NCBI GenBank assembly: GCA_029262005.1
Contig: JAJDAG010000127.1
Span: 1 to 51,637 of the forward strand
Direction of reading: 5' to 3'
Origin: Candidatus Zhuqueibacterota bacterium
GTDB taxonomy: Bacteria > Zhuqueibacterota > Zhuqueibacteria > Oceanimicrobiales > Oceanimicrobiaceae
Length of the DNA: 51,637 bases
Shown: positions 32,030 through 51,590 of the stretch, one piece after another
How the letters are laid out: each line of letters starts with the position of its first letter
Position numbering within the stretch: position 1 is the stretch's first letter
Translations under genes and position numbers: made by a program
Notes under the pieces: model-generated
What the model was told of the DNA's origin: nothing
What the model saw: only the letters and a program-made list of their open reading frames with translations
Database searches by the model: none

Positions 32030-32086
32030 CAATGTGGCTTTCATCACTTATTTTATGTAAGTTGCTCCGACAACTTGAAGTTATAC

Positions 32087-34586: not shown

Positions 34587-34614
34587 AAATAACCTGGGAG
34601 AGGAGGCACGAAAT

Positions 34615-35049: not shown

Positions 35050-35143
35050 TCTGAGCACGGCGAAAGCTGTAAACATAAAATTTGCTACGAGAAACAAGAA
35101 GCGTGTCCCGGGTGGTTAGAAATACGCCTGGCTGAGAATTCTC

Positions 35144-35172
35144 TTGACAATCACTTTGGAATTATATAAACT
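35144..35172 (+). promoter_or_regulatory. Sigma-70-like promoter ahead of the FAH hydrolase gene
   Basis: A perfect TTGACA (35144-35149) is followed by AATCACTTTGGAATTA and TATAAACT. With 17-base spacing the -10 is TAAACT (35167-35172); with 15 bases it is TATAAA (35165-35170). TTGACAATCA-N-TTT-N-AATTAT-like sequence is shared with the gatC promoter at 21973. It gives a leader of about 60 bases. Confidence 0.55.
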
Positions 35173-35231
35173 CAGGCCGTAGTTTCAGCATATCAATTAC
35201 GTGCCACGAACAACGGAAAAGGACTCCGAAT

Positions 35232-36125
35232 TTGAAGGCATTCTCCTTTCTGACCGAAGATGGTCTTATCCAAATTGGCGTAGAGTATCAAGAAAAGCTC
35301 TACAACTTTTCGCAAGGCTGGGAAATTTACAAGCAACTTAAAGGCAATGGCCAGGGGCCTGAACTTGGCTTTCTTCAAGTCATGGTGGAGGCTGATTTTT
35401 TTCAAGTAGAGACTTTGCAAGAGGTGGTTTTTGCACTTCGGGAAGCCCAGCCTCTGGATGATTTTCTACTCAAAACACCGGTCAGGTTTCTACCCCCGGT
35501 AGGGCGACCGCAAAAGATTCTTTGTATTGGCCGGAATTATCAAGAACATGCGAAGGAACTGGGCAATCCTGTTCCCAGTGAGCCGGTATTTTTTTCAAAA
35601 GCGCCATCTTCACTAAATGCGCATGAACAAGAAATCAAACTTCCACCAAATGTTGGCCGTGTGGACTTTGAAGGGGAGTTGGCGATGGTGGTTGGTCGGC
35701 GCGCACAAAATGTTCCTGAATCTCAAGCGATGGCATGTATTGCCGGTTATAGTTTGCTCAATGATGTCACCGCCCGGGATATGCAGCGAGCTGATCAAAA
35801 AGCCGGTCGACCGTGGTTTCGCTCGAAAAGTTTTGACACTTTCTGTCCCATCGGACCATTTCTGGTGCCGCGGGATATGTTAAGCAACACCGACGCGCTA
35901 CAATTGAATGTAAGAGTTAATGGCGAAGTTCGACAAAGCGCAACTGTGTCCCAGATGATTTTTGGCCTGGCTGAGATCGTATCCTATCTATCAAAGCATT
36001 GTACCCTCGAGCCGGGCGATATTATTGCCACCGGCACACCAGCAGGGGTTGGGAAGTTGCATTCCGGCGATACAGTAGAAATCGAAATCATCGAAATTGG
36101 CTCGTTGAAAAACATAGTCAAATAA
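35232..36125 (+). CDS. Fumarylacetoacetate hydrolase family protein
   Basis: A 297-residue FAH-family enzyme. Its C-terminal catalytic domain begins ILCIGRNYQEHAKELGNPVPSEPVFF near residue 96. The metal ligands lie in VDFEGELAMVVG (Glu, Glu) and LLNDVTARDMQ (Asp). RPWFRSKSFDTFCPIGPFLVP and PGDIIATGTPAGVG are family signatures. Members cleave or decarboxylate beta-diketo acids (fumarylpyruvate, oxaloacetate and others); the substrate is not deducible. The N-terminal 90 residues form the usual small domain. The start is TTG 35232, with AAAGGACT at 35217-35224. Confidence 0.92.
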   Translation: MKAFSFLTEDGLIQIGVEYQEKLYNFSQGWEIYKQLKGNGQGPELGFLQVMVEADFFQVETLQEVVFALREAQPLDDFLLKTPVRFLPPVGRPQKILCIGRNYQEHAKELGNPVPSEPVFFSKAPSSLNAHEQEIKLPPNVGRVDFEGELAMVVGRRAQNVPESQAMACIAGYSLLNDVTARDMQRADQKAGRPWFRSKSFDTFCPIGPFLVPRDMLSNTDALQLNVRVNGEVRQSATVSQMIFGLAEIVSYLSKHCTLEPGDIIATGTPAGVGKLHSGDTVEIEIIEIGSLKNIVK

Positions 36126-36175
36126 TCCCAATAACGGGTTGTTTAACCCACTTAATCAAGGAAGGAGGCATAAAA

Positions 36176-38155
36176 ATGAAGGTCAAACGTGTGCTTGGCG
36201 TTTTGTTTATTTTGACCTGTATAATAACCGTACGGGTAACCGGTGTGGTGCCAGACAAAGAAGTGTTAATCAAATTTCGACCTACAGCTACAGCAGAGCT
36301 TCAGGAGGAATTTATCAATGAAATCGGACTCACTGAGATGAAGCGTATCGATGAGATCAGTGTCCGAAAATACAAAATCACTTCTGACTATTCGGTTAGC
36401 GAAGTGCTGAAGCTTTGCAGCAACACTGCTTTTGTTGAGTACGCTGAACCAACACAAGCAGTGCGAGCATCTGCGGTGACGGAGTCTTTTAATGAACCCG
36501 GAAACGAAGAACCTGTTGCTGTTCAAGCTGAACCGGCTGAGTTTAAACCCGGTGAGGTTCTCATCAAATTCAAAAAGGAGGCAGACCAGGCGCGGGCGTT
36601 GCAAGCGCTGGGAACAGCTTCAATCGAAGTCACCAGCAGGCTCGAAGGTATTTCTGTTCTGCAGTGTACTGTGCTTGGCAACAAATCCGTATTAAGGGCG
36701 ATTGAGGAGTGCAATGCCAATCCGGATATTGAATATGCTGAGCCCAATTACATCTACCGTGCATCAGTTGAACCGAATGATCCGCGTTTCTCCAGCCTTT
36801 ACGGTATGCGGCAGATCGATGCACCCGAGGCTTGGGATGTACAGACCGGGAGTAAGGCGATCATTGTCGGGGTCATTGATACCGGTGTTGACATGGGACA
36901 TTCCGACTTGAAGGCAAATATGTGGCGGAATCCGGGCGAAACAGGTGATGGTAAGGAAAACAATGGTGTAGATGACGATGGTAACGGTTTCGTGGATGAT
37001 TATCGTGGCTGGGATTTTGTGGGTAACGATAACAACCCGCATGACGACAACAGACACGGCACGCATGTTTCCGGAACAATTGGCGCTGTCGGTAATAACT
37101 CAAAAGGCGTTGTCGGGGTCAATTGGAATACGGCCATCATGCCTTTGAGATTTCTTGACGCGCAGGGAAGTGGAACAACGGATGATGCGGTAGAAGCGAT
37201 TATTTATGGCGCAAATATGGGAGCCAAAGTGCTCAGCAATAGTTGGGGTGGCGGTGGCAGGTCCCAGGCGCTCGAAGATGCGATCAAATACGCAAACTCA
37301 AGAGGCGTTGTTTTTGTAGCGGCTGCAGGAAATGAGTCGGGGAATAACGATCGGGCACCAAGTTATCCGGCAAACTATAATGTCGAAAATGTGATTTCAG
37401 TCGCATCCAATACCAGCAGTGAGAATCTGTCGGGTTTTTCAAATTTCGGTAAAACTACCGTTGACTTGTCGGCGCCGGGCAGCGGCATTTTAAGTACTGT
37501 CCCACGTGGCGGTTACGAATCCCTTGACGGAACCTCCATGGCAACGCCGCATGTAAGTGGTGCGGCAGCGCTGGTTTGGGCACAATATCCTAATGCCAGT
37601 ATGAATGATGTGATGATCCGCTTGCTTGGATCAGTTGATAGAAGGGCAAGCTACGCAAACAAGGTTGCAACCGGCGGCAGGCTAAACGTAAATCGGGCAC
37701 TTTCCACCAACCCGATTATTGCCAGCACAACCCGCCTCGGCAATACGCTTGACGAAACAGGGCCCTACGTGGTTGAGTCAGACATCCTTGATGATTCGGG
37801 AATTCAAGGTGCAACTCTGACTTATCAGGTGACTGGTCAACCGGCGGCTACCGTCAACATGGTAGCTCAGGCAGCACATCGTTTCCGTGGAGAAATTCCT
37901 GGTCAGACGCTCGGTAGTACTGTAGTTTACTTTGTGAGCGCGACCGATGATGCGGGCAACCGTACTCAGGACAACAACTTCACTTTTTCAATCGCTGAAC
38001 CAAGTAATGATGATGGTTGTTGTGGCCAACCGGCTATCGATTTCGAGATTGCCAGTCAACCGTTGCGGACCTCCGTAAACGCTGCGGCAAATGCTTCATT
38101 TTTTATGATTCCTCTACTTGCTCTGGGATTGATGTCCAGGCGCAGGAAAAAATAG
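36176..38155 (+). CDS. Secreted subtilisin-like (S8) protease with two prodomains and C-terminal anchor
   Basis: A 659-residue exported subtilase. Residues 1-24 form the signal peptide. Two tandem fervidolysin-type prodomains follow: about 26-97 (KEVLIKFRPTATAELQEEF...FVEYAEPTQAVRA) and about 123-197 (PGEVLIKFKKEADQARAL...IEYAEPNYIYRAS). The catalytic domain has Asp235 (GVIDTGVDMGHSDL), His294 (NRHGTHVSG), Asn386 (AAAGNESG) and Ser454 (GTSMATPHVSG). The insert DDDGNGFVDDYRGWDFVGNDN is a calcium-type loop. After a beta-rich domain the C-terminus has a CC pair, a hydrophobic stretch and RRRKK, a sorting-signal layout. ATG 36176 follows GGAAGGAGG. Confidence 0.93.
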   Translation: MKVKRVLGVLFILTCIITVRVTGVVPDKEVLIKFRPTATAELQEEFINEIGLTEMKRIDEISVRKYKITSDYSVSEVLKLCSNTAFVEYAEPTQAVRASAVTESFNEPGNEEPVAVQAEPAEFKPGEVLIKFKKEADQARALQALGTASIEVTSRLEGISVLQCTVLGNKSVLRAIEECNANPDIEYAEPNYIYRASVEPNDPRFSSLYGMRQIDAPEAWDVQTGSKAIIVGVIDTGVDMGHSDLKANMWRNPGETGDGKENNGVDDDGNGFVDDYRGWDFVGNDNNPHDDNRHGTHVSGTIGAVGNNSKGVVGVNWNTAIMPLRFLDAQGSGTTDDAVEAIIYGANMGAKVLSNSWGGGGRSQALEDAIKYANSRGVVFVAAAGNESGNNDRAPSYPANYNVENVISVASNTSSENLSGFSNFGKTTVDLSAPGSGILSTVPRGGYESLDGTSMATPHVSGAAALVWAQYPNASMNDVMIRLLGSVDRRASYANKVATGGRLNVNRALSTNPIIASTTRLGNTLDETGPYVVESDILDDSGIQGATLTYQVTGQPAATVNMVAQAAHRFRGEIPGQTLGSTVVYFVSATDDAGNRTQDNNFTFSIAEPSNDDGCCGQPAIDFEIASQPLRTSVNAAANASFFMIPLLALGLMSRRRKK

Positions 38156-38173
38156 TCTTATGTATGAATGCAT

Positions 38174-38207
38174 CTGTCCCCAGCCTGGTAGCCCGGACTG
38201 GGGGCAG
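38174..38207 (+). other. Strong hairpin after the subtilase gene
   Basis: CTGTCCCCAG (38174-38183) pairs with CTGGGGGCAG (38198-38207) with one G-U pair. Inside, CC..GG and CC..GG continue the stem around a TAG loop with one bulge and one mismatch. No T run follows, so it may stabilise the 3' end of the subtilase mRNA or attenuate the downstream gene. Confidence 0.55.
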
Positions 38208-38238
38208 GCATGTATTACATATTGTTCGGAAAGGCAAT

Positions 38239-38970
38239 ATGATCGACGCTGATGTAAAGCCATACTTGGTACGCATAAAAGATTGGAAAATCCGCAACAT
38301 GGTAATGCTGTATCTTGACGCTCGGGACAAGTTCAAGAATTACCATAAGTTGCTTCGTGTCGACAAAAATCTTTCGTTCGAGCGAATGCGTGAAATTTGT
38401 GACGTTCTTTTTGAGGTGAAGGAAGATCACCATTTGTTATACAAGCGGCTGCTGGATCCAAAAAAGAACAAGTTCGAGGCTGAGCGGAAGTTTATGCCTG
38501 ATGAAGTTGAGTTAAGGTTCATGAACAATGTCGGTTTGTTATTTCATAAAATGCTGGTCGCCCGGGAGTTGAAATACTTGCTCGAACATTATGTTGAACA
38601 AAACCAAACATACACCAAAAACAAAGAAAGTTTACACAAGCAGCTCGGAATCATCAACGCTCTGTTTGATGATGGTATTGTCATCCTGAAAGATTTAATC
38701 AGTCAAAATAGCGCCAACATGTTGCTGCTTACATTGCTTCTGGATGACCCGGAAATGACCAAGAGGAATTTTGGCAAACGCGCGATTCCACTTATTGAAC
38801 AATTTGGCAATGGCTTGGCAGATATCTACTATACCGTTGGACGATATTACCTGGAACGCGGTTGGCGGGACCAAGCAAAACGCATGCTTAAGAATGCTGT
38901 GAGAAAAGATGGAAAGCATCGCCGGGCGCGGGTTTTGCTGAGGAAGATTAGCGCTGCAGAAAAGACTTGA
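38239..38970 (+). CDS. Conserved-looking helical protein of unknown function
   Basis: A 243-residue protein I do not recognise. It is rich in charged helices and has no signal peptide or membrane segment. Residues about 195-240 (LADIYYTVGRYYLERGWRDQAKRMLKNAVRKDGKHRRARVLL) look like a tetratricopeptide-type helix pair. The central part carries long amphipathic helices (ELRFMNNVGLLFHKMLVARELKYLLEHYVEQ). It may be a cytosolic scaffold. I start at ATG 38239 after GGAAAGG; the frame is open further upstream into the subtilase gene. A terminator follows at 39019. Confidence 0.6.
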   Translation: MIDADVKPYLVRIKDWKIRNMVMLYLDARDKFKNYHKLLRVDKNLSFERMREICDVLFEVKEDHHLLYKRLLDPKKNKFEAERKFMPDEVELRFMNNVGLLFHKMLVARELKYLLEHYVEQNQTYTKNKESLHKQLGIINALFDDGIVILKDLISQNSANMLLLTLLLDDPEMTKRNFGKRAIPLIEQFGNGLADIYYTVGRYYLERGWRDQAKRMLKNAVRKDGKHRRARVLLRKISAAEKT

Positions 38971-39018
38971 TTTTACTCCTTATTACCTCTAAGTTGTGTT
39001 CGAATTTGGAGAGAGACG

Positions 39019-39055
39019 CAGGCATGGCTGAATTTGGCTATGCCTGTTTTGTTTT
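39019..39055 (+). terminator. Intrinsic terminator before thiI
   Basis: CAGGCATGGC (39019-39028) pairs with GCTATGCCTG (39037-39046) with one G-U pair and an 8-base loop. TTTTGTTTT follows. It closes the transcript of the unknown gene at 38239. Confidence 0.85.
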
Positions 39056-39097
39056 GACCCGTGCATGGCCGTCTATTTAATGAAGCGAATTTGATCC

Positions 39098-40264
39098 ATG
39101 AAAAAAATTGTGGTAATTCATTATGGGGAAATCGCCATCAAGGGAGAGAATCGCATCTACTTTGAACGGCAACTCATAAAAAATATAAAACGTGTTTTAT
39201 CCAAAACAGAATACATAGAAATACAAAGGCTGAGAGGCCGCATTATAATTTTTTTGACTGAAGCTGCGTCTGAAGAGTCGCTTGCCATTCGCCTGGGAAA
39301 TATTTTTGGAATTGCCAATTTCAGTTTTGGCGTTGGTGTTGAGACTGATCTGCAAGTTATGAAAGAAACTGCCTGGGAATTGATCCAGCCCATGGCGTTC
39401 GAATCTTTTAGTGTAAACACACGCAGAGCGCAAAAGGAGTTTGAATTAAATTCAATGCAACTCAACCGGGAGGTCGGTGGCTACATTCAGGATCGTTGCA
39501 AGAAGCGCGTTGATTTGACCAACCCCGAGGCAACGGTACACATTGAGCTCACAGAGCGAGGGGCATTCCTTTTCACTCGAAAACTACCCGGTCTGCGGGG
39601 CATGCCGGTTGGGGTTAGCGAGCGAGCTGTCAGCCTGCTTTCTTCGGGAATCGATTCCCCGGTGGCTTCTCACATGATGATGAAAAGAGGCGTTCATCTT
39701 GTTTATGCTCATTTCCATAGTCAACCTTACACCAGCAAGGCATCACAAGATAACACAGAAAAGCTCGTTGAACTACTCACGAAGCTGCAGTATTATTCGA
39801 AAGTCTATTTTGTCCCATTTATCGATATTCAGAAAGAGATTATGACCAAGGCCCCTGCCCCGTTCCGTGTGTTGCTATATCGTCGTTACATGATCCGGCT
39901 CTCAGAACGTATTGCAGGAATCGAGCGCTGCCGCGCGCTGGTGACTGGCGAGAATGTTGCTCAAGTAGCCTCTCAGACCCTGAGCAATATACGCGTTGTG
40001 GGTGAGGTAACCTCGTTGCCAATTCTCCGGCCGCTGGCAGGTTTTGACAAAGATGAAATCGTGCAGCGTGCGAGAACAATCGGCACTTATGACATCTCCA
40101 TCGCGCCTTATGAAGATTGCTGTACTCTTTTCATTCCGGACAAACCAGCTACCAAAGCCCATTCAGACCGGCTTGAAGCAGCAGAAAAACTTCTGGAAAT
40201 GGATGACTTGCTTGATGAGGCAATGCAAAGAGCTGAGATGAAGATTTTTCGAAGTGGAGAATAA
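39098..40264 (+). CDS. thiI: tRNA 4-thiouridine synthase ThiI (no rhodanese domain)
   Basis: ThiI (388 residues) makes 4-thiouridine at tRNA position 8 and supplies sulfur for thiamine in some bacteria. A ferredoxin-like N-terminal domain (HYGEIAIKGENRIYFERQL) leads to a THUMP domain (about 60-165), then the PP-loop SSGIDSP at residues 182-188 and the block ALVTGENVAQVASQTLSNI. It stops at about 388 residues, so it lacks the rhodanese domain of the E. coli enzyme. The tail has a C-C pair (EDCCTLFIPDKPATK). It is followed by a convergent minus-strand gene. Confidence 0.95.
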   Translation: MKKIVVIHYGEIAIKGENRIYFERQLIKNIKRVLSKTEYIEIQRLRGRIIIFLTEAASEESLAIRLGNIFGIANFSFGVGVETDLQVMKETAWELIQPMAFESFSVNTRRAQKEFELNSMQLNREVGGYIQDRCKKRVDLTNPEATVHIELTERGAFLFTRKLPGLRGMPVGVSERAVSLLSSGIDSPVASHMMMKRGVHLVYAHFHSQPYTSKASQDNTEKLVELLTKLQYYSKVYFVPFIDIQKEIMTKAPAPFRVLLYRRYMIRLSERIAGIERCRALVTGENVAQVASQTLSNIRVVGEVTSLPILRPLAGFDKDEIVQRARTIGTYDISIAPYEDCCTLFIPDKPATKAHSDRLEAAEKLLEMDDLLDEAMQRAEMKIFRSGE

Positions 40265-40344
40265 AGTCGATTTTAGAATGCACCCCTGAAAGCTTTCGCA
40301 GCAATTTCCCTCCCCAGAGGCAGCGAGGTTAGAGGCTGTCTAAA

Positions 40345-41133
40345 TTATGCCCGGGCTGACCCGGTTTCAGTGGTCAGAAAATCACGAACCAAATGCAGAA
40401 ATACTTCCGGCGAATCAAAATGCACCCAGTGATCTGCTTCCGCTATCATCTGCAGTCGCGAGTTTGGAAAGTGTCGTATGATTTCGTCGGCCTGAAGCTG
40501 GAGTTTTAGGTCAGAGCGACCACCTCCAATAAAAAGAGACGGTCCGTTGAATTGTTCGTCGCGGCCCAGAGAGAAAGTTGGTTCGTTTAAGACAAAGCGG
40601 TGGAGTTCGTCGAGATTGCACTGCCAAGCATATGTGCCGCCTTGTTGGCGTTTGAGATTTGTTAACAAAAATTGGCGAATGACTGGTGCGTGAATTGAAT
40701 CTGCCAGCAGGGCGTCGGCGTCCTTTTTGCGCGTAATATTCTTGAGATCAACGTCTTGTAACCGTTGTAAAATCCAAACGATTTTCTTAAGGTTAATCTT
40801 GGGCGCCGTATCAACCACGATAAGCGATCGGATTCGTTCAGGATAAGTGATAGCGAAGCGCATGGCAACCATTCCGCCAAGAGAATGTCCCAGAAGGTTT
40901 GTACACTCGATTTCCAGCAGATCCAGCAGCCTGGCGAGATCATCGCACATTAACTGCATCGAATGGAGACCGTGTGGTGAAGCGCCGTGATTACGCAAAG
41001 TAGGAACAAGGATACCGCCGTCTGCAGCAAGTTTTTGCGCGATTTGTTGCCAGTTCCGACCAGAGCCGAGCAAGCCGTGCAGGATGATGAGTTCGGTTTG
41101 GCCTACTCCATATTTTTGAAAATCAAGCTGCAT
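40345..41133 (-). CDS. Alpha/beta hydrolase (YbfF-like esterase)
   Basis: A 262-residue alpha/beta hydrolase on the minus strand. The oxyanion-region motif ELIILHGLLGSGRNWQQIAQKLA is followed by the RNHGASPH loop and the nucleophile elbow GHSLGG with Ser84. The catalytic His is His235 (EADHWVHFDSPEVF); the acid is probably in FIGGGRSD. RNHGxSPH is the pattern of the YbfF esterases. The substrate is unknown. The gene is convergent with thiI and divergent from the cold-shock gene. Confidence 0.9.
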   Translation of the reverse strand: MQLDFQKYGVGQTELIILHGLLGSGRNWQQIAQKLAADGGILVPTLRNHGASPHGLHSMQLMCDDLARLLDLLEIECTNLLGHSLGGMVAMRFAITYPERIRSLIVVDTAPKINLKKIVWILQRLQDVDLKNITRKKDADALLADSIHAPVIRQFLLTNLKRQQGGTYAWQCNLDELHRFVLNEPTFSLGRDEQFNGPSLFIGGGRSDLKLQLQADEIIRHFPNSRLQMIAEADHWVHFDSPEVFLHLVRDFLTTETGSARA

Positions 41134-41200
41134 AGCCTGAATATATGCCTGGAATCCTGTTCAATGCAAGGTAAAACAAGAGGGTGCACCGAGAAATTTC

Positions 41201-41228
41201 TTGCATTTTTTGTCATTTCGGCTATATT
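41201..41228 (+). promoter_or_regulatory. Candidate cold-shock gene promoter with long leader
   Basis: TTGCAT (41201-41206) and TATATT (41223-41228) lie 16 bases apart. The -10 is good, the -35 weak. From here the 5' leader of the csp gene would be about 185 bases. Long structured leaders are typical of cold-induced csp mRNAs, but the actual start site is not shown by the sequence. Confidence 0.4.
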
Positions 41229-41419
41229 TGATTTTGCATAAGTTAGTGTACGCCTCTTCTTGCGCCGTTCAAGTGTTGATTAGACAATTTCCAAATTAAC
41301 TTGGTTCGAACTGCATATTTGACGACTGAGCAAAGTTATTCTCTGGATTGTTACTTCGATGTATTCTGTCGATCGGAAGTGCGTAGTACAAAACCATCAT
41401 CATACGTGAGGGATTTTCT

Positions 41420-41620
41420 ATGGAAAATGGTAAAGTTAAGTGGTTCAACAACGCGAAAGGCTATGGGTTCATTGTTAGTGATGAAGGCACAGATGTGTTT
41501 GTTCATTACAATGTCATTGAAGGTGAGGGGTTCAAGACGTTGGAGGAAGGCGAGCAGGTTCAATTTTCAGTAGAAGAGGGTCCGAAAGGCTGTCATGCCA
41601 CGTCAGTGATTAGACTGTAA
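41420..41620 (+). CDS. Cold-shock domain protein
   Basis: A 66-residue CspA-family protein. It starts [16 protein letters not shown] (RNP1 is KGYGFI) and has VFVHYN (RNP2) and the closing [13 protein letters not shown] single-stranded RNA/DNA chaperone is expected. The start is ATG 41420 after GTGAGGGATTTTCT; the SD is weak, as often for cold-induced genes. It has its own terminator. Confidence 0.96.
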
Positions 41621-41651
41621 CCACAAGATAAAAACAAATATTTATTTATGC

Positions 41652-41677
41652 CCCGGTCAATTTGGCCGGGTTTTTTT
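41652..41677 (+). terminator. Intrinsic terminator after the cold-shock gene
   Basis: CCCGGTC (41652-41658) pairs with GGCCGGG (41664-41670) with one G-U pair and a 5-base loop, followed by seven T residues (41671-41677). It lies 31 bases after the csp stop. Confidence 0.93.
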
Positions 41678-41835
41678 GTTACCACTACCGGATGATTCTG
41701 CATAAGATCATTTCTGAGCGTAGTTTAGATTGATTTGGTAATTAAAGAAGTATTGATAAAGGCCGTAATATTTTAGTAGGCTTAGCATAAAAAACGGACG
41801 GGGGCTTCGCGCATAATAGGGGAAAACAGGACGTT

Positions 41836-44316
41836 TTGTTCCTCATGGCTTCAAAAATAAATGGTAGAGTTCCACTGTTTTTGGGTGGTATTGCTAGTTT
41901 TCTGGCTGTGGCATTTTTGTTTTTTGGCTTCATTATTCCACAAACGCCTGGCCGGTTGACCCGCCCCAGCGCTGCCTTGTTCGAAGATTATGCGCTTTGG
42001 TCAGGCATTACCGCTGTTGGTATTCCGGTGCCACAAAATAGCGAAACAGTGGCCTTGCTGGTTGTTGCGTTTTCTCTGGTTTGCTTTTTGGCATATGGCG
42101 TTGCAGTTTATTTCTGCTGGAAACACCGTGAAGATGTGCGAATCAGGTCCATCGTTTTGGGCGCTTCGGTTGTCTTTTTTTTCATTTCGGTCTGGTTTCT
42201 GCCAAATTTCAATACAGACATTTTTAACTATATTTTGCGCGGGCGGGTAGTAGCTGTTTATGAAAGCAATCCGTACTATGATGCGGGTGATGCGTTTTCT
42301 GATGATCCAATTTATGAGTATGCGAGCCACCGCTATACAGCAGTTCCCGGAGGTAAGTTCCCGGCCTGGATGCATATCAATATTTTTCTTGCCAGCATTG
42401 CAGGTGACAGTCCGCTAGGAAATCTGCTTCTTTATCGCGCATTCTTTTTTATCGTCAACCTGCTGAACCTTGGGCTCATTTGGCGGATCTTGATGCGATT
42501 GAACCCAAGTTATGTTATGCCTGCGCTGCTGATGTATGCGTGGAATCCAATTGTTGTCCTGAATGGACAGAGCAAAACAGACACCGTCATGGTGTTCTAT
42601 TTGCTCCTCGCGGTTTGTCTTCTGGTATATGAACGGCACCGCCTTGCAACCGTGGCTCTGAGTTTATCTGTTTTTGTAAAATTACTGACAGGTCCTTTGC
42701 TGCTGGTCTATTTGCTTCGGGAGCTAGCTCTTAAACGATGGCGGTCGTTGTTGGTGAGTATTGGCTTGATCGTTGGCACCGTGATTGTCTTGTACATGCC
42801 TTTTTGGGATGGACCAAGTCTGCTGACACATCACATCCAGGCATTGGGAGAAAGCGGGACCTCAGTGCCGGGGGCAATAAAAACACTTATGGCGCTCATG
42901 TTTGTTGCGCTTGTGTTCTGGATAGGCTTGATTCAAAACGGCAGCACAGAAAGACTTCTGGATGGCTGGGCGTTCTTGATGTTGTACTTTGCTTTATTTA
43001 TGACCAAGCTCGGGCTGGCCTGGTATTTAATGACTTTGATAGCTTTGGTAAGTCTTAGTTTTAACCCAAGGCTGACAGTCATCATGATTGTACTTTCGTT
43101 TTCATCTTTCTTGTTCAACTCCTGGTACTCGACTTTTTCCAGCCAGTTTAAAGTCGAGGAATTGTTCGCTTTGCCCAAGTTGCTGGTCTATATTGCTTTA
43201 CCTGCTATTCCGTTGCTCTGGTTTTCAATTCGCGGTGGCTATCGGAAGAGCAGGATTCTAATGAATTCTAAAAGTAACCCTGAACGCCATGGACAAAGGG
43301 ATGACCATTTAGCCCCTGGCGTTGCAGTTAATTCGATTAATAGAAGTGGAGATTTCTATTCTATGCTTCGTGTGCTTACTTATCATCGTGTTGCAAATCC
43401 GGAAGATAGGCCGATGCTCGATCCCCGGATCATAAGTTCCACACCGGTTGTTTTCGCGCAACATATGAACTATTTAAAAAAATACTACAATGTTGTATCG
43501 ATGCAGGATGTGCTGGACGCGGTTGAGGGGAAAAAGAGACTTTCTCAAAGAGCTATTCTGATTACTTTTGATGATGCTTATTGTGATTTCAAAGAAAATG
43601 CCTGGCCGGTACTGAAACGGCTTAACCTGCCTGTAACTGTTTTTGTGCCCACTGCCTACCCGGATCAAAATGAGCGTTGTTTTTGGTGGGATAAACTATA
43701 TCGTTGTGTTATTCATACGGAAAAAAGTAAAATTCTTTGTTCACCCATTGGTACGCTAACGCTGCAATCTGTAGAAGAGCGGCAGCAAAGTCTGCGGCGT
43801 TTACAGCAATACATCAAGACTTTACCACATTCAGAGGCCATGGCGCTTGTGGAACAAATCGCCGAAGAGCTGGAGGTAGGTTCAGACACAACAGAAAAAA
43901 CAGTGCTGAGCTGGGATGAATTAAGGCAGTTAGCAAAAGAAGGTGTTACGCTGGGAGCACACACAAGAACGCATCCAATCATGACACAATTGAGTCTTGA
44001 GCAGGTGCGCGAAGAGGTTTCTGGTTCTTTCACCGATTTGCAGCGCCAGCTCGGTGAAGTGTTGCCGATCTTCTGTTATCCAAACGGTAGCCACGACGAT
44101 GACATTGTGCAAGTTCTCGAAGAGGATAACTTTAAGCTTGCATTTACTGTGATCGATGGGATTAACGATTTGGAGGTTGCCAATCCACTGCGTTTGCGTC
44201 GCACAAATATTACAAGAAAATCCACGCTTCCCGTGCTTAAGCTCCGACTACAAAAATGGTATACTTACATAGATATGTGGCGCCATCGTGAACGTCACCA
44301 GGTTAGCCATAGATAG
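41836..44316 (+). CDS. Membrane glycosyltransferase fused to polysaccharide deacetylase
   Basis: An 826-residue two-part protein. Residues about 1-475 are a polytopic membrane region with about ten helices. An early loop contains FNTDIFNYILRGRVVAVYESNPYY (Asp-rich, GT-C-like), and SKTDTVMVFYLLLAVC follows. This is the pattern of polyprenol-phosphate-sugar-dependent GT87-type mannosyltransferases. After a polar linker (about 476-509), MLRVLTYHRV starts a NodB polysaccharide deacetylase at 510, with metal ligands Asp579/Asp580 (ITFDDAYCD) and His709/His713 (HTRTHP). The frame is unbroken. TTG 41836 or ATG 41845 could be the start. The two activities could act on one exported polymer. Confidence 0.85.
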   Translation: MFLMASKINGRVPLFLGGIASFLAVAFLFFGFIIPQTPGRLTRPSAALFEDYALWSGITAVGIPVPQNSETVALLVVAFSLVCFLAYGVAVYFCWKHREDVRIRSIVLGASVVFFFISVWFLPNFNTDIFNYILRGRVVAVYESNPYYDAGDAFSDDPIYEYASHRYTAVPGGKFPAWMHINIFLASIAGDSPLGNLLLYRAFFFIVNLLNLGLIWRILMRLNPSYVMPALLMYAWNPIVVLNGQSKTDTVMVFYLLLAVCLLVYERHRLATVALSLSVFVKLLTGPLLLVYLLRELALKRWRSLLVSIGLIVGTVIVLYMPFWDGPSLLTHHIQALGESGTSVPGAIKTLMALMFVALVFWIGLIQNGSTERLLDGWAFLMLYFALFMTKLGLAWYLMTLIALVSLSFNPRLTVIMIVLSFSSFLFNSWYSTFSSQFKVEELFALPKLLVYIALPAIPLLWFSIRGGYRKSRILMNSKSNPERHGQRDDHLAPGVAVNSINRSGDFYSMLRVLTYHRVANPEDRPMLDPRIISSTPVVFAQHMNYLKKYYNVVSMQDVLDAVEGKKRLSQRAILITFDDAYCDFKENAWPVLKRLNLPVTVFVPTAYPDQNERCFWWDKLYRCVIHTEKSKILCSPIGTLTLQSVEERQQSLRRLQQYIKTLPHSEAMALVEQIAEELEVGSDTTEKTVLSWDELRQLAKEGVTLGAHTRTHPIMTQLSLEQVREEVSGSFTDLQRQLGEVLPIFCYPNGSHDDDIVQVLEEDNFKLAFTVIDGINDLEVANPLRLRRTNITRKSTLPVLKLRLQKWYTYIDMWRHRERHQVSHR

Positions 44317-44318
44317 TT

Positions 44319-44334
44319 AGACTGAAATCAGTCT
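44319..44334 (+). repeat. Perfect inverted repeat after the fusion gene
   Basis: AGACTGA (44319-44325) is followed by AA and TCAGTCT (44328-44334), a perfect 7-bp dyad with a 2-base centre. The centre is too short for a hairpin loop, so it looks like a protein-binding palindrome if functional. It begins 3 bases after the stop of the fusion gene. The rest of the 200-base gap to 44517 shows no gene. Confidence 0.4.
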
Positions 44335-44516
44335 CCACCGGAATATGCACCGGCCTTGTGTCATTGTCATCGCAAATCAACAACGTTATCTCGCTGCGGG
44401 ATGAGAGTGCTTTTGCGAAACAAATCGAAAGGGACGGCGTGCTTTTTAGTCTCCGGTCATGCCAGGGAGTTCGTCGAGACCGTACATTGGAAACATCTTA
44501 GTTAAGTTTTGAATTA

Positions 44517-46478
44517 ATGAATTTTATGATTTTTGCATTGCCTGTGTTTGGGAATCGCACTTTTACTTTTTGTATAATTATTTCTATTGGTTTGCAAGTC
44601 CTTTCGCTTCGGGCGGCCCGGCAACAGGCGGAAAATACGCCGGGGAGCCAGGGGCCAAAGCACCCCTCTGAATTTGAGGCCTTTTTGGATAATATTATTT
44701 CTGAGCAGATGCAAGAGCTGCACGTACCAGGTGTCGTTCTTGCCTTGGTCAAAGGTGATAAAGTGTTTTTCCTGAAGGGATATGGCTTGGCCAATATTGC
44801 CGAGAATAAGCCTGTCGACCCGCAGAAAACTTTGTTTCGTGTCGCGTCGGTATCAAAAGTGTTGACTGTAACTGCGATCATGCAGTTGGTCGAGCGCAGG
44901 CTCATTGATTTAAATACAGACATCAATCAATATATTGATAAATTTGAGATCTCGGGCCGGTTTTCTCAACCGATAACGGTGGAACATTTGATTACACACA
45001 CCGCCGGTTTTGATGACAGTCGCATCGGCCTTGCTTCATTGTCTGAAACGTCGCTCATGTCTCTCGATGATTTTTTGGCGCACCACTTGCCGGCCCGGGT
45101 GATGCCACCCGGAAGAGAATACAGCTACTCGCGTTACGGAATTGCGCTTGCCGGGCACATTGTTGAAACAGTCTCCGGTAGTAGTTTTTCACGCTATATT
45201 GAGGAGCAAATTCTTCAACCTTTGGCTATGCGCAGGAGCGGTTTTACTCGACGGAATGATATGTTGACTGACTTTGCCACCGGCTATCGGTTTGATGGTG
45301 GTAGATTGGATGCAGTCCCGTATTATCATTTTTTCACAGCCCCGGAAGCATCCTTTAACGCAACTGCTGCAGACATGGCCAGGTTTATGCTCGCGCACCT
45401 GAACGGCGGGGAACACGATGGCGCACGCATTTTACACTCCGCGACTGTAAAATTGATGCATCAGCAACATTTTTCTCACCACACCGGTTTGCCGGGGTTG
45501 GCTTACGGCTTCTACGAGCGGCTGGAAAATGGTCAGCGTGCGATTCAACACGGTGGGCATATTCCCGGCTTTGTCAGCCGGATGTTGCTTTTGCCGGAGC
45601 AGAAGTTGGGATTGTTTATTTCCTGCAACAGTGACGCTTTTAAACTTATCAGTGTGGTCACCAGTGAGTTTTTTAACCGATATTTTCCGGCTCAGAATAC
45701 GGCTGCTCAGACTGAGAAAGCTGACGCCCAACCCGAACTGCCACCTGACGGTGCCGGGGCATCAACAAATTTAAGCCGGTTTGCTGGAACCTACCGCATC
45801 AATGAATATGCCCGAAAAACCATTGAGAAGATATTTTCGCTTAAAAAGCAATTCAGAATAAAGGTGGATGGTGATGGCTTGAGCGTAAAAGGAAGCAAGC
45901 ACCTTGTTGCTGTTGATACGCTGGTTTTTCGTGAGGTGGAAACCGGAGAGTTAACAGCTTTCCGCACCGATACAGCCGGTGTCGTTACCCGGTGGTTTAG
46001 CAAGCGTTTTGCTTATGAGAAAATGCGCTGTTATGAGACGGTTCAATTTCATCTGACGGCTGTTTTGTTGATGAGTATTGTCTTCCTGGTTGGCTTTTTA
46101 TTTTGGGCAGGCGGTCATATCCCAAAGTTGAATTTTTTGCCGTTTATTCAATCTGTCGAGACCAATGGCGTTTTTCGTCTGGCTGGTGTGGTCAGTTTAC
46201 TCAATCTGGTATTTTTGGCAGGGCTGACTCTGCTGTTCCTGACTTTCGACCGGATCGATGAATTCACCTTCGGCATTCCACCCTTGATTGTCGGTTGGCT
46301 GTGTTTGCCCATGGCCGGTGCCACGCTGACCGTTGGCTTGCTGGTTGCAGAAATCAAGGTCTGTATCAGCAAAACCTATTCGTTCTCTTCGCGTGTTTAC
46401 TTTACGCTTGTTACACTGACTTCAGTTGGTTTCCTCTTATTTCTAAATCACTGGAATTTGCTCGGATTTCATTTCTAA
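44517..46478 (+). CDS. Serine hydrolase (beta-lactamase/PBP fold) with C-terminal membrane domain
   Basis: A 653-residue protein of the class C beta-lactamase/penicillin-binding fold. A signal-like segment covers residues 1-32. The nucleophile motif is S111-V-S-K114 (RVASVSKVLT); the second motif usually reads Y-S-N but here is Y204-S-R206 (EYSYSRYG); HGG at 345-347 (IQHGGHIPGF) is the third. After residue about 420 a beta domain (STNLSRFAGTYRINEYARK) is followed by four or five membrane helices (about 520-645). Such enzymes are esterases or peptidases of cell-wall substrates; the Arg in the second motif is unusual. Two genes downstream run convergently. Confidence 0.85.
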   Translation: MNFMIFALPVFGNRTFTFCIIISIGLQVLSLRAARQQAENTPGSQGPKHPSEFEAFLDNIISEQMQELHVPGVVLALVKGDKVFFLKGYGLANIAENKPVDPQKTLFRVASVSKVLTVTAIMQLVERRLIDLNTDINQYIDKFEISGRFSQPITVEHLITHTAGFDDSRIGLASLSETSLMSLDDFLAHHLPARVMPPGREYSYSRYGIALAGHIVETVSGSSFSRYIEEQILQPLAMRRSGFTRRNDMLTDFATGYRFDGGRLDAVPYYHFFTAPEASFNATAADMARFMLAHLNGGEHDGARILHSATVKLMHQQHFSHHTGLPGLAYGFYERLENGQRAIQHGGHIPGFVSRMLLLPEQKLGLFISCNSDAFKLISVVTSEFFNRYFPAQNTAAQTEKADAQPELPPDGAGASTNLSRFAGTYRINEYARKTIEKIFSLKKQFRIKVDGDGLSVKGSKHLVAVDTLVFREVETGELTAFRTDTAGVVTRWFSKRFAYEKMRCYETVQFHLTAVLLMSIVFLVGFLFWAGGHIPKLNFLPFIQSVETNGVFRLAGVVSLLNLVFLAGLTLLFLTFDRIDEFTFGIPPLIVGWLCLPMAGATLTVGLLVAEIKVCISKTYSFSSRVYFTLVTLTSVGFLLFLNHWNLLGFHF

Positions 46479-46622
46479 TTTCCCCACCCATCTTTGCCGC
46501 ATGATTGTAGAGGTAAGTTGCCTTAAAGTCACAAGCGTGCCGGGATTGTGCAAATAAAAGCAGCAAAACCTTACATTGTTTTGGGTGAAAATCCCTGAAA
46601 AATAGAAACTAAGAAATCAAAA

Positions 46623-48065
46623 TTATTGATTTGTGTCGAAAATAACCTCTCCCAAGTCGCGGTCGCTTGCGTGGTCGGCGCGTAGACGGGGCGCCTCTTC
46701 AAGTTCCAGGCGGATGCGCGGAAAGTGATATTGAATGTCCGCATCCTCTGAGACATCTGTTTCGCCATCCAGATCGAGTACCAGTTCTTTCAGCATGCCG
46801 GTGATGGTTTCCATGGGGAGTGTTTCTTCTTTGCCGCAACGGTTTACTTTTTTGCAAATACTATCCGCGGTTTGGGGTTGACTGTAACTGGCAAATATGG
46901 CCTTGTAGAGTCGTTTACGGATATTATTTTTTTGTCTGTGTTGACGGAGCCGAAGGATTCTCACCCAGCGAGTTAAGGGAATTATTATGAATAAAAGCGA
47001 AAAGACCAGTGGCACGCCGCCAAAAAGAAGCGGATGACTCGCCACTGCTTGCAGGAGTTCTCCACCCGGGCCGTTGATATTCAGTTGCACCAATTCCGTA
47101 AAGGCGCCCTGTGTCACCAGGTAGGATATGAGCAGGTTGAAAGCATTCATTGCAACAATCAAAAAGTTGCGGCCTGCGGAATTTCCTGTGACCTGATATT
47201 CAGGCTCGTACTCATCCCAATAATTGACTATTTTACCTTCTGCTGGCGCCACCCCTCTGAGTATTCGTTTAAACTTACCGTATACCGCGCCATTGTCAGA
47301 GACCAGAACCTCTCCATCATAGCGATTGAGGTAGTCGGTAAAGCTCTGCTCGGCCTGTTTTCTATCCAATCCTGCCAGTGCTTCCAGGTCGGCGGTAACC
47401 AGAATGCCGTTGTTTTGGCCGAGGAAAGCGGCCACTTCTTTGGCATTGGCAAGTTGCGAAATATCGACGCGTGGCGGGCCGAAGACAAAATCATAAACCG
47501 CGGCGATAAAGTTTTTCTTTTTCTTATTCAGGGTGCCTGGCTGTGGCTCGTATTCCCGGTATGGGTAGCCGCGATCATCGTGTCGATTGCGAGTCCCTCC
47601 TGTGATGGTCCGCCAGCGGAAAATAGACATCAAAATATGGAGGAGTTGCAGGCCGTTAAATGACAGGCCGCCACGTGTTCCACGATTCTGCCCACGTTTT
47701 CCGGAACTGGCGGCAACAACCAGCAGGATCATCAAGATCAGGAAAATAACGAAGTAGATTACCAGAGTCACGGTCAGCCAGGCCTTGAACAATAGAGTAA
47801 ACGCCTTCCATAGATATTCCGCCGCTTTTTGCAAAGTTTCGGTAAACGGTTTTTCGTCCCATTGCCGTGGGCTGGACCCGAAATCATAAATCAAGTCGCC
47901 GTTTTCAGTTACCTGAATACGGCAAACGTATTTTTTTATGAGCTGCTCTATTCCGTCTTTGACCTGATCAATTGCGAGACCGGTGACACTGGAAGCCTCA
48001 TAGTCCGTAAACCGGTGCTGGCGCTTGAGAAGGGTTTTCTCCAACAACTCTAAGGTTTTTTGCAT
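46623..48065 (-). CDS. Membrane protein with three winged-helix-like domains
   Basis: A 480-residue protein on the minus strand that I do not recognise as a known family. Three segments share the same layout of helices ending in a wing-like strand pair: residues about 1-62 (HRFTDYEASSVTGL...QVTENGDLIYDF), 205-266 (ILVTADLEALAGL...LVSDNGAVYGKF) and 382-450 (PQTADSICKKVN...DVSEDADIQYHF). Hydrophobic helices lie at about 90-118, 300-318 and 348-366, so domains 1 and 3 (or all three) may face the cytosol. A basic segment KKKKNFIAAVYDFVFGPPR precedes domain 2. ATG 48065 is chosen over TTG 48098. Confidence 0.65.
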   Translation of the reverse strand: MQKTLELLEKTLLKRQHRFTDYEASSVTGLAIDQVKDGIEQLIKKYVCRIQVTENGDLIYDFGSSPRQWDEKPFTETLQKAAEYLWKAFTLLFKAWLTVTLVIYFVIFLILMILLVVAASSGKRGQNRGTRGGLSFNGLQLLHILMSIFRWRTITGGTRNRHDDRGYPYREYEPQPGTLNKKKKNFIAAVYDFVFGPPRVDISQLANAKEVAAFLGQNNGILVTADLEALAGLDRKQAEQSFTDYLNRYDGEVLVSDNGAVYGKFKRILRGVAPAEGKIVNYWDEYEPEYQVTGNSAGRNFLIVAMNAFNLLISYLVTQGAFTELVQLNINGPGGELLQAVASHPLLFGGVPLVFSLLFIIIPLTRWVRILRLRQHRQKNNIRKRLYKAIFASYSQPQTADSICKKVNRCGKEETLPMETITGMLKELVLDLDGETDVSEDADIQYHFPRIRLELEEAPRLRADHASDRDLGEVIFDTNQ

Positions 48066-48104
48066 GGAGTACCTGCTATTAATTGTCAATTTATGCAAGA
48101 ATGA

Positions 48105-49346
48105 CTAAATTCCATATTTCTCCGCAAACGTAACCAGTGCCTCCTCAAATATTTGCATGGGCGGACGCACCAGGCCGGCGCCAACCTGGCCAATGCCGGC
48201 ATTTTTGTGTGCAATGCCGGTATTCACGCGAGGCGTCAAGCCGGTTTCAATGACTTTGCGCAAATCGATGCCGGTGGGCGTGCCGCGAAATTCAAATTGG
48301 GGAATTGTGAAATGTTTATGCTCGGCAAAAGTGATTTCGTACATTTCCATGGTCGCATTAACCGCATCTTTGGGTGAGCCGCTGACAAAAGTGACAATGG
48401 CCGGAGCAGCAGCCATGGCAAATCCACCGATGCCGGCGGTTTCCGTGATGGTGCTGTCGCCAATGTCCGGGTTGGCATCCTCGTCACCAAATCCTGGAAA
48501 ATAAAGACCTTTTGGTATTTGCGCGGGCGCCGTAAACCATTGTTCGCCAAGGCCACTGACACGGATACCGAAATCCGTGCCGTTGCGCGCCATGGTGGTG
48601 ACGATGGTGCTGCCTGCAATGCCGTGGGCAGTGTCGGCCATTACTTTGCAGGCCGCCATTACCGGGTTCAAAACACTCAGCGCGTTGTCACCAATGGCTT
48701 TTAGAACGGTTGCACTGGTTTCGTTGTCATCACTGACTTTTGCAATATGCGGGGCAAGGGCTTTCAGGAACAAAATAGAGCCTGCTTTGTTGCGATTGTG
48801 TCCCTCATCTCCCATGTGCAGTGCTTCGGAAAGCAGCGCCTTGATATCAATGCCGCCACTGGCTTTGACGGCGTCATTCAAAACAGGGGCCATGACGTCT
48901 TCCATCCATCGCAGTCGCTGTTGCACTTCATCGTCGTAAGCGCCGTATCGCAGTACTTTTCCGTATCCTTCATTTAGATTAGAGAATGCGCGATTGCCGT
49001 GGACTTCATTTTCGACAATGTAAACGGACATGGACGCTGAAGTAACCCCGGCCATGGGCCCCACTGCTTGATGGTGGTGACATGGCTCAAGTTCGATTTC
49101 ACCGCTTTCAACCAAAGTTTGTGCTTCGGCTTCGGTTCGCGCTTTACCCTCAAAGATAAGCGCGCCGGTGATGGCACCGCGCATGGGGCCGGAAGTGCGC
49201 TCCCATGTGATTGGCGGCCCGGCGTGCAGCAGAAGATTATCCTTCATTCCGGGTATGACGTCTTTGGCTTTGGCAATTTCGGTTAGCACAGCCCGAGCTT
49301 CTATCATTCTGGTAGTGGCTTGTTGATTGGCTTTTTCAATATCCAT
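48105..49346 (-). CDS. DUF1116 protein (AllG/YlbE-like)
   Basis: A 413-residue DUF1116 protein. Key blocks are GPMRGAITGALIFEG, the His-rich EPCHHHQAVGPMAGVTSASM, and FSNLNEGYGKVLRYGAYDD. GMDEGHNRNKAGSILFLKAL-like HMGDEGHNRNKAGS and the closing RPPMQIFEEALVTFAEKYG complete the family. In E. coli the DUF1116 protein AllG acts with FdrA (AllF) and a DUF2877 protein (AllH) as oxamate carbamoyltransferase in allantoin degradation. Here it follows fdrA by 88 bases on the same strand. The partner DUF2877 is not in the window. Confidence 0.88.
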   Translation of the reverse strand: MDIEKANQQATTRMIEARAVLTEIAKAKDVIPGMKDNLLLHAGPPITWERTSGPMRGAITGALIFEGKARTEAEAQTLVESGEIELEPCHHHQAVGPMAGVTSASMSVYIVENEVHGNRAFSNLNEGYGKVLRYGAYDDEVQQRLRWMEDVMAPVLNDAVKASGGIDIKALLSEALHMGDEGHNRNKAGSILFLKALAPHIAKVSDDNETSATVLKAIGDNALSVLNPVMAACKVMADTAHGIAGSTIVTTMARNGTDFGIRVSGLGEQWFTAPAQIPKGLYFPGFGDEDANPDIGDSTITETAGIGGFAMAAAPAIVTFVSGSPKDAVNATMEMYEITFAEHKHFTIPQFEFRGTPTGIDLRKVIETGLTPRVNTGIAHKNAGIGQVGAGLVRPPMQIFEEALVTFAEKYGI

Positions 49347-49434
49347 CTGTGGTTCCTTTTTGTTCGTGCGCTATGCGTGTCATGGGTCGTTAGGCTGCTA
49401 TGCTCTTGGGCATTTCGCAGCTTTAATCTCAAAA

Positions 49435-51159
49435 TTAATTGTTTTGCGCTTTCTTCATGCGCTCAAGAATTGACATCAGTTTTTCATTGCCGCCGGCAGG
49501 TGGCCGCCAGTCAACATGAACAACAGCCGCAGTTTGATTAGCTAAACTTGAAGCAAATGACTCTAAACCAACATTGATTGCCGCAACCGGTTCTTGCAGG
49601 ATGGCCAGATCGACTGGAGGAAGCTTCCCGGGTTGTAATTGCCTTTGCAGGCGCTGGCCAACATACGCACAAGCGACAGTATTGCTTTTTTCAACGCGTG
49701 CGCCCGCAGTTCGCAGGCGCTCCATCTGGGAAGCTATGTTCTGGGGGTCATCTTCTGTGCCAACCAGCACAACGACAATTTCCAGTTCACGTTTGGCCTT
49801 TTGGGCGCGGGTTCGTGCAGCAGAAATAGCGGGGGCCAGTTCACTTGCAGGATCAGGATGGGCGCCGTGACCCAGTACAATATCCATTAAAATGATGGCG
49901 ACCTCAGGATCGGCTGCTTCTTGCTGGAAACGCGCCAACCGCAAATTGTTGTCGAGCATCGGATGCGGACGTCCTACTGTAAAAGCGTCTTCACCCAGAT
50001 CGAGAAGCGTGTGTTCGCGACTGCGTTTTAAATCGTTCAACTGTTGTTCTTTTTCGTGCGCGATGTTTGAGTGGATGTTCGGCAGGTAATTCTGTAAAAT
50101 GAACAGGCTCTCCTGGGCCAGGGTGCCACCGGAAAACAGGCCGCGCAAATAGCGCTGGTCTTTTGCAAATCTAACCGGTTTATTTTTTGCAGGTGAAGGC
50201 GTGGCCGCTGCTGTTACCAGTTGAACGGCCAGTTCTGCGGTTTCATCAAGGGAACGGGCAAAATGTATGTTGTGACTATTTTCGTCAGTTGTCACTGCGG
50301 GGTATCCAATGAAATAGACCACCACGGGTTTGTCAACCGTTCTGGCTGATTGCAGCAGGGTGGTGGTTACCGTTTGGGCCGGCGGTTTTGAAATGAGCAC
50401 GATGACCTGGGTCTCAGGATCACGTTGTAGCAACCCGAGACATTGCAGTGCAGTAATGCCACCCACTTCTGCGGACAGATCGCGACCGCCCGTTCCCAGC
50501 GCGTGCGTGATGCCGCTGCCCAATTGATCGATGCGCGCGGTGACTTGCTGCAACCCGGTTCCTGAAGCACCAACCAGGCCGATGGGTCCACGCCGCACCT
50601 GATTGGCAAAGCCAAACCCTGTATTGTTTACTATGGAAGTGCCGCAATCCGGCCCCATCAACAACAGACCGCTATGGCCGGCCTCGTGTTTTAATGCGAT
50701 TTCATCTTCAATACTAACATTGTCGCTGTAAAGAAAAACATTTTTTTGTAAACGCAGTGCTTCGCGAGCCACACCGGCTGCATATTGGCCCGGCACAGAG
50801 ATAAGCGCCCATTTTGCATTTGGCAGCATTTGGGCTGCCGCCTCAACACTTTTAGGTAAGTAATCCTGCTCAGAAGTTGATTTGCGGGACGAGAGCAGGT
50901 TGTCTACTTCCGCCAGGGCAGCATCGGCAGTGGTCGTATCATCACACTCGACGCTGATAATGAGATCATCTGGAAAAGCAGCTTCGGCTTCTGCGGTGAG
51001 AAGTCCATTCTGCTTAAGTATTTCTTTGTTGGCGGCCACACCCATCATGACGCCGGCATTATTGACACCGGGTATTTGGCTCAGGGAAAGCTGGAGCTGC
51101 ATCAGGATAATTGAATCGTAATAGGTGCCGCGTCGGATTTCGACTTTGGTTGTCCGCAT
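49435..51159 (-). CDS. fdrA: FdrA (AllF-like acyl-CoA-synthetase-fold protein)
   Basis: A 574-residue protein of the succinyl-CoA-ligase-like FdrA family. The Rossmann segment IGLVGASGTGLQQVTARIDQLGSGITHALGTGG is near residue 192; the second half has LRGLFSGGTLAQESLFIL and the family hallmark LLDLGEDAFTVGRPHPMLD, then VLGHGAHPDPASEL. It ends ...VDWRPPAGGNEKLMSILERMK, also typical. E. coli FdrA (AllF) takes part in oxamate carbamoyltransferase. It is the first gene of the minus-strand run fdrA-DUF1116-winged-helix gene. G+C content is visibly higher than in the ribosomal region (see findings). Confidence 0.9.
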   Translation of the reverse strand: MRTTKVEIRRGTYYDSIILMQLQLSLSQIPGVNNAGVMMGVAANKEILKQNGLLTAEAEAAFPDDLIISVECDDTTTADAALAEVDNLLSSRKSTSEQDYLPKSVEAAAQMLPNAKWALISVPGQYAAGVAREALRLQKNVFLYSDNVSIEDEIALKHEAGHSGLLLMGPDCGTSIVNNTGFGFANQVRRGPIGLVGASGTGLQQVTARIDQLGSGITHALGTGGRDLSAEVGGITALQCLGLLQRDPETQVIVLISKPPAQTVTTTLLQSARTVDKPVVVYFIGYPAVTTDENSHNIHFARSLDETAELAVQLVTAAATPSPAKNKPVRFAKDQRYLRGLFSGGTLAQESLFILQNYLPNIHSNIAHEKEQQLNDLKRSREHTLLDLGEDAFTVGRPHPMLDNNLRLARFQQEAADPEVAIILMDIVLGHGAHPDPASELAPAISAARTRAQKAKRELEIVVVLVGTEDDPQNIASQMERLRTAGARVEKSNTVACAYVGQRLQRQLQPGKLPPVDLAILQEPVAAINVGLESFASSLANQTAAVVHVDWRPPAGGNEKLMSILERMKKAQNN

Positions 51160-51590
51160 TATTTTGTTTCTCTTTTCGGTTGTGTTAAAAATTCCTGAAT
51201 TTTACGTTTATTGTGGGCAACAAAAATAACCCTCTGCAATGCTGCAGATTGTTAACCGAGAAAAATAATGCAGGAGTTTAAGTAAAACAGTCTCCGACAC
51301 AGTTTAGGCGACTGGAAGCCTCTTTGCTGCGCCCCTCTGAATAAATCAGGAACAAGCAATTGTAGTCATTCTTTTAAGTCATGTCAAGCGCGGATTTTTA
51401 AACCAGCCAACTAAATGCACCGCTGTGTTCTGCTTCAACGAATCGGGCATTCCCTGGAACAGTTCTTTTCAAGTTTCTGTGTTTGTAACCTGAGCCTCGG
51501 ATACGTTTTTAATGGTTCTGTGTTGATCTGTATGGGTACAGTTGTTATCAATCAGGCGTCAAAATAAGTATTCCTCACGAATTCCCACAG
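51160..51590. other. Intergenic region upstream of fdrA
   Basis: About 430 bases without a recognisable gene on either strand. It is AT-richer than the flanking fdrA gene. It should contain the fdrA promoter (reading leftward), but I could not fix convincing -35/-10 hexamers. CTGCAATGCTGCAG-type short dyads occur near 51235-51248. No terminator-like stem with a T run was found. Confidence 0.5.

Follow-up and report, generated by a model that had tools for sequence, protein, structure and literature searches.

In the window (the whole stretch of DNA analysed, 51,637 nucleotides), from a bacterium of the KSB1 group, a single uninterrupted reading frame codes for a polytopic glycosyltransferase and, C-terminal to it, a CE4/NodB-type polysaccharide deacetylase. 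Our best model, to which we give a probability of roughly 0.42, is that the gene specifies one bifunctional inner-membrane protein, which would deacetylate a lipid-linked N-acetyl amino sugar at the cytoplasmic face of the membrane; the sugar would then be flipped, and a GT-C transfer would follow on the outside. A glycosyltransferase-CE4 fusion as such is already known from MatB; what our searches of the open-licence literature did not turn up is a CE4 domain joined to a GT-C enzyme, with the predicted arrangement reversed.

The frame runs free of stops from 41836 to 44316 on the forward strand (826 codons plus the stop), just as a first-pass annotation of this DNA had described it. Its first possible start is a TTG at 41836, giving 826 residues, and an ATG in the same frame at 41845, giving 823 residues, is at least as plausible and is the likely start. 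We count residues from ATG 41845 (gene at 41845..44316, forward strand), so that residue 510 of the first-pass annotation is Met507 here. Hydropathy marks the N-terminal part as strongly hydrophobic, a polysaccharide deacetylase makes up the C-terminal part, and, judged from the sequence, both active sites look intact.

A whole-protein search of 60 relatives and the genome itself found the full-length fusion in two further genomes, as an 867-residue frame with 62% identity (G006) and an 878-residue frame with 54% identity (G003); the homologous loci are L007/L036 and L008/L037. These fusions lie in Caldithrix sp. CR04bin15 (SMXE01000043.1) and candidate division KSB1 bacterium OFTM356 (JAJDAF010000017.1), which are independent MAGs, and the three carriers represent three genera of one family. 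When public genome contigs were scanned for the glycosyltransferase (GT) half by two short peptide patterns, which detect close relatives only, two loci with frames of these lengths came up. Between the two halves lies a linker of 41 codons (43240..43362, forward strand) that begins with a stretch rich in lysine and arginine. The linkers of the three fusions measure 41, 41, and 52 codons, and none contains a stop; with shuffled bases, the probability of a stop-free linker by chance is 0.050, 0.074, and 0.097, with a product of 3.6e-4 if the three are independent. The first-pass annotation had named two alternatives, a stop codon lost between two genes or an assembly error at the junction, and had proposed a search for the same fusion in related genomes. 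The unconserved sequence of the linker would fit an accident of this kind. However, neither alternative holds, because the frame is uninterrupted in two other genera of the family, in independent MAGs, and because stop-free linkers are improbable by chance; we see next to no probability that an assembly error, or a stop recently lost in this genome alone, accounts for the frame.

Across the phylum set, the GT profile finds matches at E up to 1e-8 in 17 of 82 genomes. Four of these matches are strong (>450 bits), namely the three fusions and an unfused paralogue in G003 (C62, L055:1486-3006, reverse strand), which has 44% identity to the GT half and no deacetylase domain in its 507-residue frame. 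The other 16 score weakly, at no more than 60 bits, in frames of at most 574 residues. The genes near the paralogue resemble, by eye, a GDP-mannose dehydratase, a GDP-fucose synthase, and several glycosyltransferases. Our alignment of the GT half (A4) has 17 rows: the three fusions, the paralogue, and 13 of the 16 weak matches, with L052 and L056 left out as frames that begin at a contig end and L053 as one that the profile scan did not list. A further alignment (A5) holds 12 of the 13 weak-match rows.

The GT half (41845..43239, forward strand) has about 14 predicted helices, including one short hairpin, with both ends predicted inside. The first-pass annotation called it GT87-like. From its own sequence this call is weak, since the GT87 (PF09594) score is 18 bits with the whole protein and 19.6 bits with the GT half, below the cut-off of 25 bits, and the half itself matches neither TIGR03459 (alpha-1,6-mannopyranosyltransferase A, MptA-type) nor NF038066 (MptB); profile comparison, on the other hand, supports it. 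The profile of the GT half aligns with that of 12 unfused MptA/MptB-like relatives at an hhalign probability of 99.3 (E 9.6e-21), and of the 17 rows in A4, seven match GT87, six TIGR03459, and four NF038066 with an E-value of at most 0.01. These relatives match the MptA, MptB, and GT87 models with the pattern around an invariant Asp; unlike the window protein, the MptA/MptB and GT87 families have no deacetylase domain belonging to them. By sequence, then, we place the GT half as a distant member of the GT-C enzymes, in the MptA/MptB/GT87 group, both for its profile similarity to recognised members and for its predicted build, with many helices and a large extracytoplasmic loop that carries a conserved Asp. 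Rv3779, discussed below, is also a GT-C enzyme. The conserved residue is Asp125 (codon 42217..42219, forward strand), which lies in the motif NTDIFNY within a predicted loop at about residues 120-195. It is invariant in 17 of 17 rows, as are Asp246 (codon 42580..42582) and Lys279 (codon 42679..42681), both on the forward strand; further invariant residues are Asn142, Pro143, Trp233, Pro235, and Trp393. GT-CA enzymes are described as having an essential Asp at a helix tip in the first periplasmic loop (PMC12041299), and by analogy Asp125 is the natural candidate for this catalytic residue, although its loop follows the predicted third helix rather than the first. A PDB sequence search with the GT profiles gave no match up to E 10.

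The deacetylase half comprises 317 residues when counted from an internal ATG (43363..44313, forward strand). That it is a NodB deacetylase, as had been claimed from the first look, is borne out by PF01522 at 77.5 bits against a curated cut-off of 23.1. The Asp-Asp codons of TFDD (CE4 motif 1) lie at 43570..43575 and HTRTH (CE4 motif 2, H(S/T)xxH) at 43960..43974, both on the forward strand; the aspartates and both histidines are invariant in 10 of 10 rows. We take these two motifs to be the metal-binding and catalytic motifs of CE4/NodB-type deacetylases. The nearest characterised families by sequence are PgaB and IcaB, at scores far below the equivalog cut-offs (86.7 versus 321.9 bits for TIGR03938, and 38.1 versus 248.35 bits for TIGR03933). 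No ArnD model is among the NCBIfam matches of this half, and no chain so named is among its PDB sequence matches.

The deacetylase falls in a well-supported group of ten sequences, which comprises the three GT-C fusions, two GT4 fusions (G030 and G017), and five stand-alone proteins. In the GT4 fusions, which occur in one genus (L011:199-2433 and L013:226-2439, both on the reverse strand), a deacetylase of this subfamily continues in frame into a GT4 domain downstream, and this is a second, separate glycosyltransferase-deacetylase fusion in the phylum. Our trees used 22 rows (one per locus, from a much longer match list) and, in the second tree, 13 of these 22. In both trees a stand-alone deacetylase from G002 groups with the G003 fusion (support 95/94 and 93/92), though the data do not reject a clade made up of only the three fusions (p-AU 0.051). 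One reading is a single origin of the fusion with later loss of the GT half in G002, whose deacetylase is then possibly a product of fission; the other is that G002 is a near outgroup. The G002 gene (L029:9265-10239, reverse strand, also L010) is flanked, by eye, by a very large protein and an enoyl-CoA hydratase-like gene. As this free-standing deacetylase falls within the fused clade, deacetylase and GT are not bound to function as a single chain.

The order in which the two halves act depends on where each is placed, which hydropathy and counts of lysine and arginine allow us to predict. Both the N terminus and the end of the last helix are predicted to face the cytoplasm, and the Asp125 loop to face outwards. 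Lysine and arginine are more numerous inside than outside in 16 of 17 rows (the exception is L046), in totals that exclude loops longer than 45 residues, and by their distribution the last helix ends on the inner side in the paralogue as well as in each of the three fusions. The helix parity depends on residues 269-292 forming a short helical hairpin, a prediction that the lysine- and arginine-rich loops on either side support. No convincing signal peptide is seen in any of the seven close deacetylase relatives outside the GT-C fusion; near the N-terminus of the domain, hydropathy is highest in the two GT4 fusions (1.53 and 1.35), in a stretch that crosses the likely start and lies partly outside the protein. 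Because the last helix of the fusion ends inside and because these relatives are without a convincing signal peptide, the deacetylase is predicted to be, most likely, cytoplasmic. AlphaFold2 models, built from only three sequences each, reached a mean pLDDT of only 39.5 for the fusion and 52.9 for the deacetylase alone, too low to draw on, so that the topology stands as a prediction from sequence.

With the deacetylase predicted inside and the active site of the GT outside, deacetylation should precede transfer. The first-pass annotation had proposed the reverse, a protein that first transfers and then deacetylates, and the predicted placement of the two sites does not support it. For the GT half to transfer an N-acetyl sugar that the deacetylase half then deacetylates, both halves would have to work outside. 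PgaB and IcaB do act outside, on an exported polymer, and the CE4 domain of MatB is predicted to be extracellular (PMC5972031). Against this stand the lysine and arginine counts at the last helix of the three fusions and the paralogue, the seven of seven close relatives without a convincing signal peptide, and the fusion of two of these to a soluble-type GT4; transfer before deacetylation is in our judgement improbable.

In the preferred model, the CE4 half, presumably metal-dependent, would be held at the cytoplasmic face of the inner membrane, where it would most likely act on an N-acetyl amino sugar already attached to a lipid carrier and remove the acetyl group; we infer both this substrate and its lipid linkage. 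The lipid-linked sugar would then be flipped across the membrane, and the GT-C half would take a sugar from a polyprenyl-phosphate carrier, its putative class of donor, and transfer it on the outer side. The suggested sequence of deacetylation, flipping, and transfer would be like that of ArnD, flippase, and ArnT, or of NaxD-dependent galactosamine (GalN) transfer, in one chain. Several points count against this model: the deacetylase is by sequence nearest to PgaB/IcaB, with no ArnD model among its matches; the helix parity rests on the 269-292 hairpin; no lipid-sugar genes adjoin the fusion; and the free-standing G002 deacetylase groups among the fused ones. That the lipid-linked free amino sugar made by the cytoplasmic-face deacetylase is the same one that the outer-face GT-C uses, within one polypeptide, we propose tentatively and with some doubt; this would in effect unite the chemistry of ArnD and ArnT in a single chain made from other subfamilies, a comparison that we offer in the same doubtful spirit.

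Next after the best model ranks a possible arrangement in which the two halves serve one surface-glycan pathway and act on two substrates. The deacetylase would work on a cytoplasmic lipid-linked oligosaccharide repeat unit (Wzx/Wzy type), the GT-C half would add an unrelated branch sugar outside, and the fusion would provide for joint expression and placement. GT-C enzymes of the MptA/MptB type extend or branch glycans outside, in line with this role. The gene block that contains the stand-alone deacetylase of G057 also has GT4-like, ATP-grasp, thymidylate-kinase-like, APH-like, and Wzy-like genes, and because of this block we suggest that the deacetylase may work on a lipid-linked unit before export, a point that speaks for the best model as well. 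In addition, the unfused paralogue in G003, without a deacetylase domain, sits in another glycan gene block. However, the conservation of the fusion over 54-62% identity hints at a coupling closer than co-expression.

Several known systems are comparable. MatB of Streptomyces is a GT2-CE4 fusion protein for a surface glycan (PMC5972031, PMC4391728), and like MatB the window protein has a glycosyltransferase and a CE4/NodB deacetylase in one chain. In the descriptions of MatB the glycosyltransferase is a cytoplasmic PgaC-like GT2 and the CE4 domain is N-terminal and predicted extracellular, whereas here a polytopic GT-C predicted to act outside comes first and the CE4 domain is C-terminal and predicted cytoplasmic; the fusion thus has neither the GT2 nor the N-terminal, outside CE4 domain of the MatB type. 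In the Arn pathway, Und-P-Ara4FN is first deformylated by ArnD, and ArnT transfers the sugar once it has been transported (PMC12650200); ArnT is classed in GT-CA (PMC12041299). The likeness that we propose is one of role only, a deacylase acting on a lipid-linked amino sugar ahead of a GT-C transfer outside, as ArnD and ArnT are separate proteins and neither half here matches an ArnD or ArnT model. NaxD is described as deacetylating undecaprenyl-phosphate-linked GalNAc before the addition of GalN to lipid A (PMC11279074), and unlike the fusion it is a separate protein, of the YdjC superfamily according to that account. In the modification of arabinogalactan, lipid-linked GalNAc is flipped and deacetylated, after which Rv3779 transfers GalN on the outside; deacetylation is named beside flipping, and the deacetylase and flippase of this PpgS/Rv3779 pathway are called unidentified (PMC9671496). 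This lipid-linked GalNAc route is like the one that we propose for the window gene, and the available text of that paper does not mention a fusion. A GT-C/deacetylase fusion in the opposite arrangement to MatB was not found in our searches of the open-licence literature, and none is described in the available text of PMC7112168 and PMC8449245.

The first-pass annotation had also pointed to a ribosome-binding-like AGTGGAG ahead of the ATG at 43363, and this is indeed present (43345..43351, forward strand), 11 bases before the ATG. The possibility raised from it, that a separate deacetylase could be translated internally, fares less clearly. A product of this kind, a free 317-residue deacetylase made from ATG 43363 in addition to the fusion protein, would be compatible with the other readings set out above. 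The ATG and a purine-rich stretch ahead of it are kept in three of three fusions (GGAGAGG and AAAGGA precede the same conserved ATG in the two homologues), though the fusion needs no methionine there, and in three of the seven relatives outside the fusion a different residue occupies this position. The grouping of the stand-alone G002 gene within the fused clade also speaks for a free deacetylase. On the other side, the Shine-Dalgarno-like pairing with an assumed 16S tail gives -6.4, -7.0, and -5.6 kcal/mol, values that place it no higher than the top 10, 6, and 18% of codon positions; moreover, the ATG may be a relic of an ancestral start, or a methionine may be wanted where the fold begins. 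The pairing data are compatible with a second product and no proof of one, and we consider such a product rather unlikely.

The surroundings of the fusion are partly conserved. The window and G003 share a gene order of thiI, an alpha/beta hydrolase on the reverse strand, a cold-shock gene, the fusion, and a beta-lactamase-fold gene; in G002, G004, G005, and G007, where thiI was found, the stretch examined contains the hydrolase and not the fusion. The beta-lactamase-fold gene (44517..46478, forward strand; PF00144 at 210.6 bits) encodes a serine beta-lactamase-fold protein with a C-terminal hydrophobic region, is the next gene downstream in three of three fusions, and also occurs apart from the fusion in G004. 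Just ahead of the fusion, at 41420-41680, is a gene for a 66-residue protein that resembles, by eye, a cold-shock protein, with a strong terminator-like stem at 41652-41670; in G003 a similar cold-shock-like gene and terminator are found in the same place (L008, about 866-1110). Rfam gave no match in 33000-51637, and promoter-like sites were no commoner than in shuffles (7 versus 8.4). Three consecutive envelope-glycan-like genes lie at 31019-34481: a FemAB-like and a glycosyltransferase-like gene, both by eye, and one of the GT9 heptosyltransferase type (PF01075). The neighbours of the fusion are the cold-shock gene, the alpha/beta hydrolase, and the beta-lactamase-fold protein, none of them a lipid-sugar gene. 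In the genome as a whole the GtrA family (PF04138) is absent, leaving no GtrA-type flippase to point to. A scan of GT2s covered six of 30 loci (31 matches), picked by a motif resembling polyprenyl-phosphate sugar synthases, and found proteins resembling ArnC/PgfS and PpgS, all below the curated cut-offs of those families. Because such GT2s are encoded, a lipid-linked donor is conceivable.

Amino-sugar pathways for surface glycans can deacylate a lipid-linked sugar before GT-C transfer, and in corynebacteria and mycobacteria the deacetylase is described as unidentified (PMC9671496). The natural fusion ties one particular deacetylase to one particular GT-C enzyme, with active sites predicted on opposite faces of the membrane. 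It offers a compact object for testing whether these steps are coupled, and a hint for the assignment of deacetylases and GT-C enzymes that pair without being fused. If both halves do act on the same sugar across the bilayer, the protein would provide a handle on the coupling of deacylation, flipping, and transfer of lipid-linked amino sugars.
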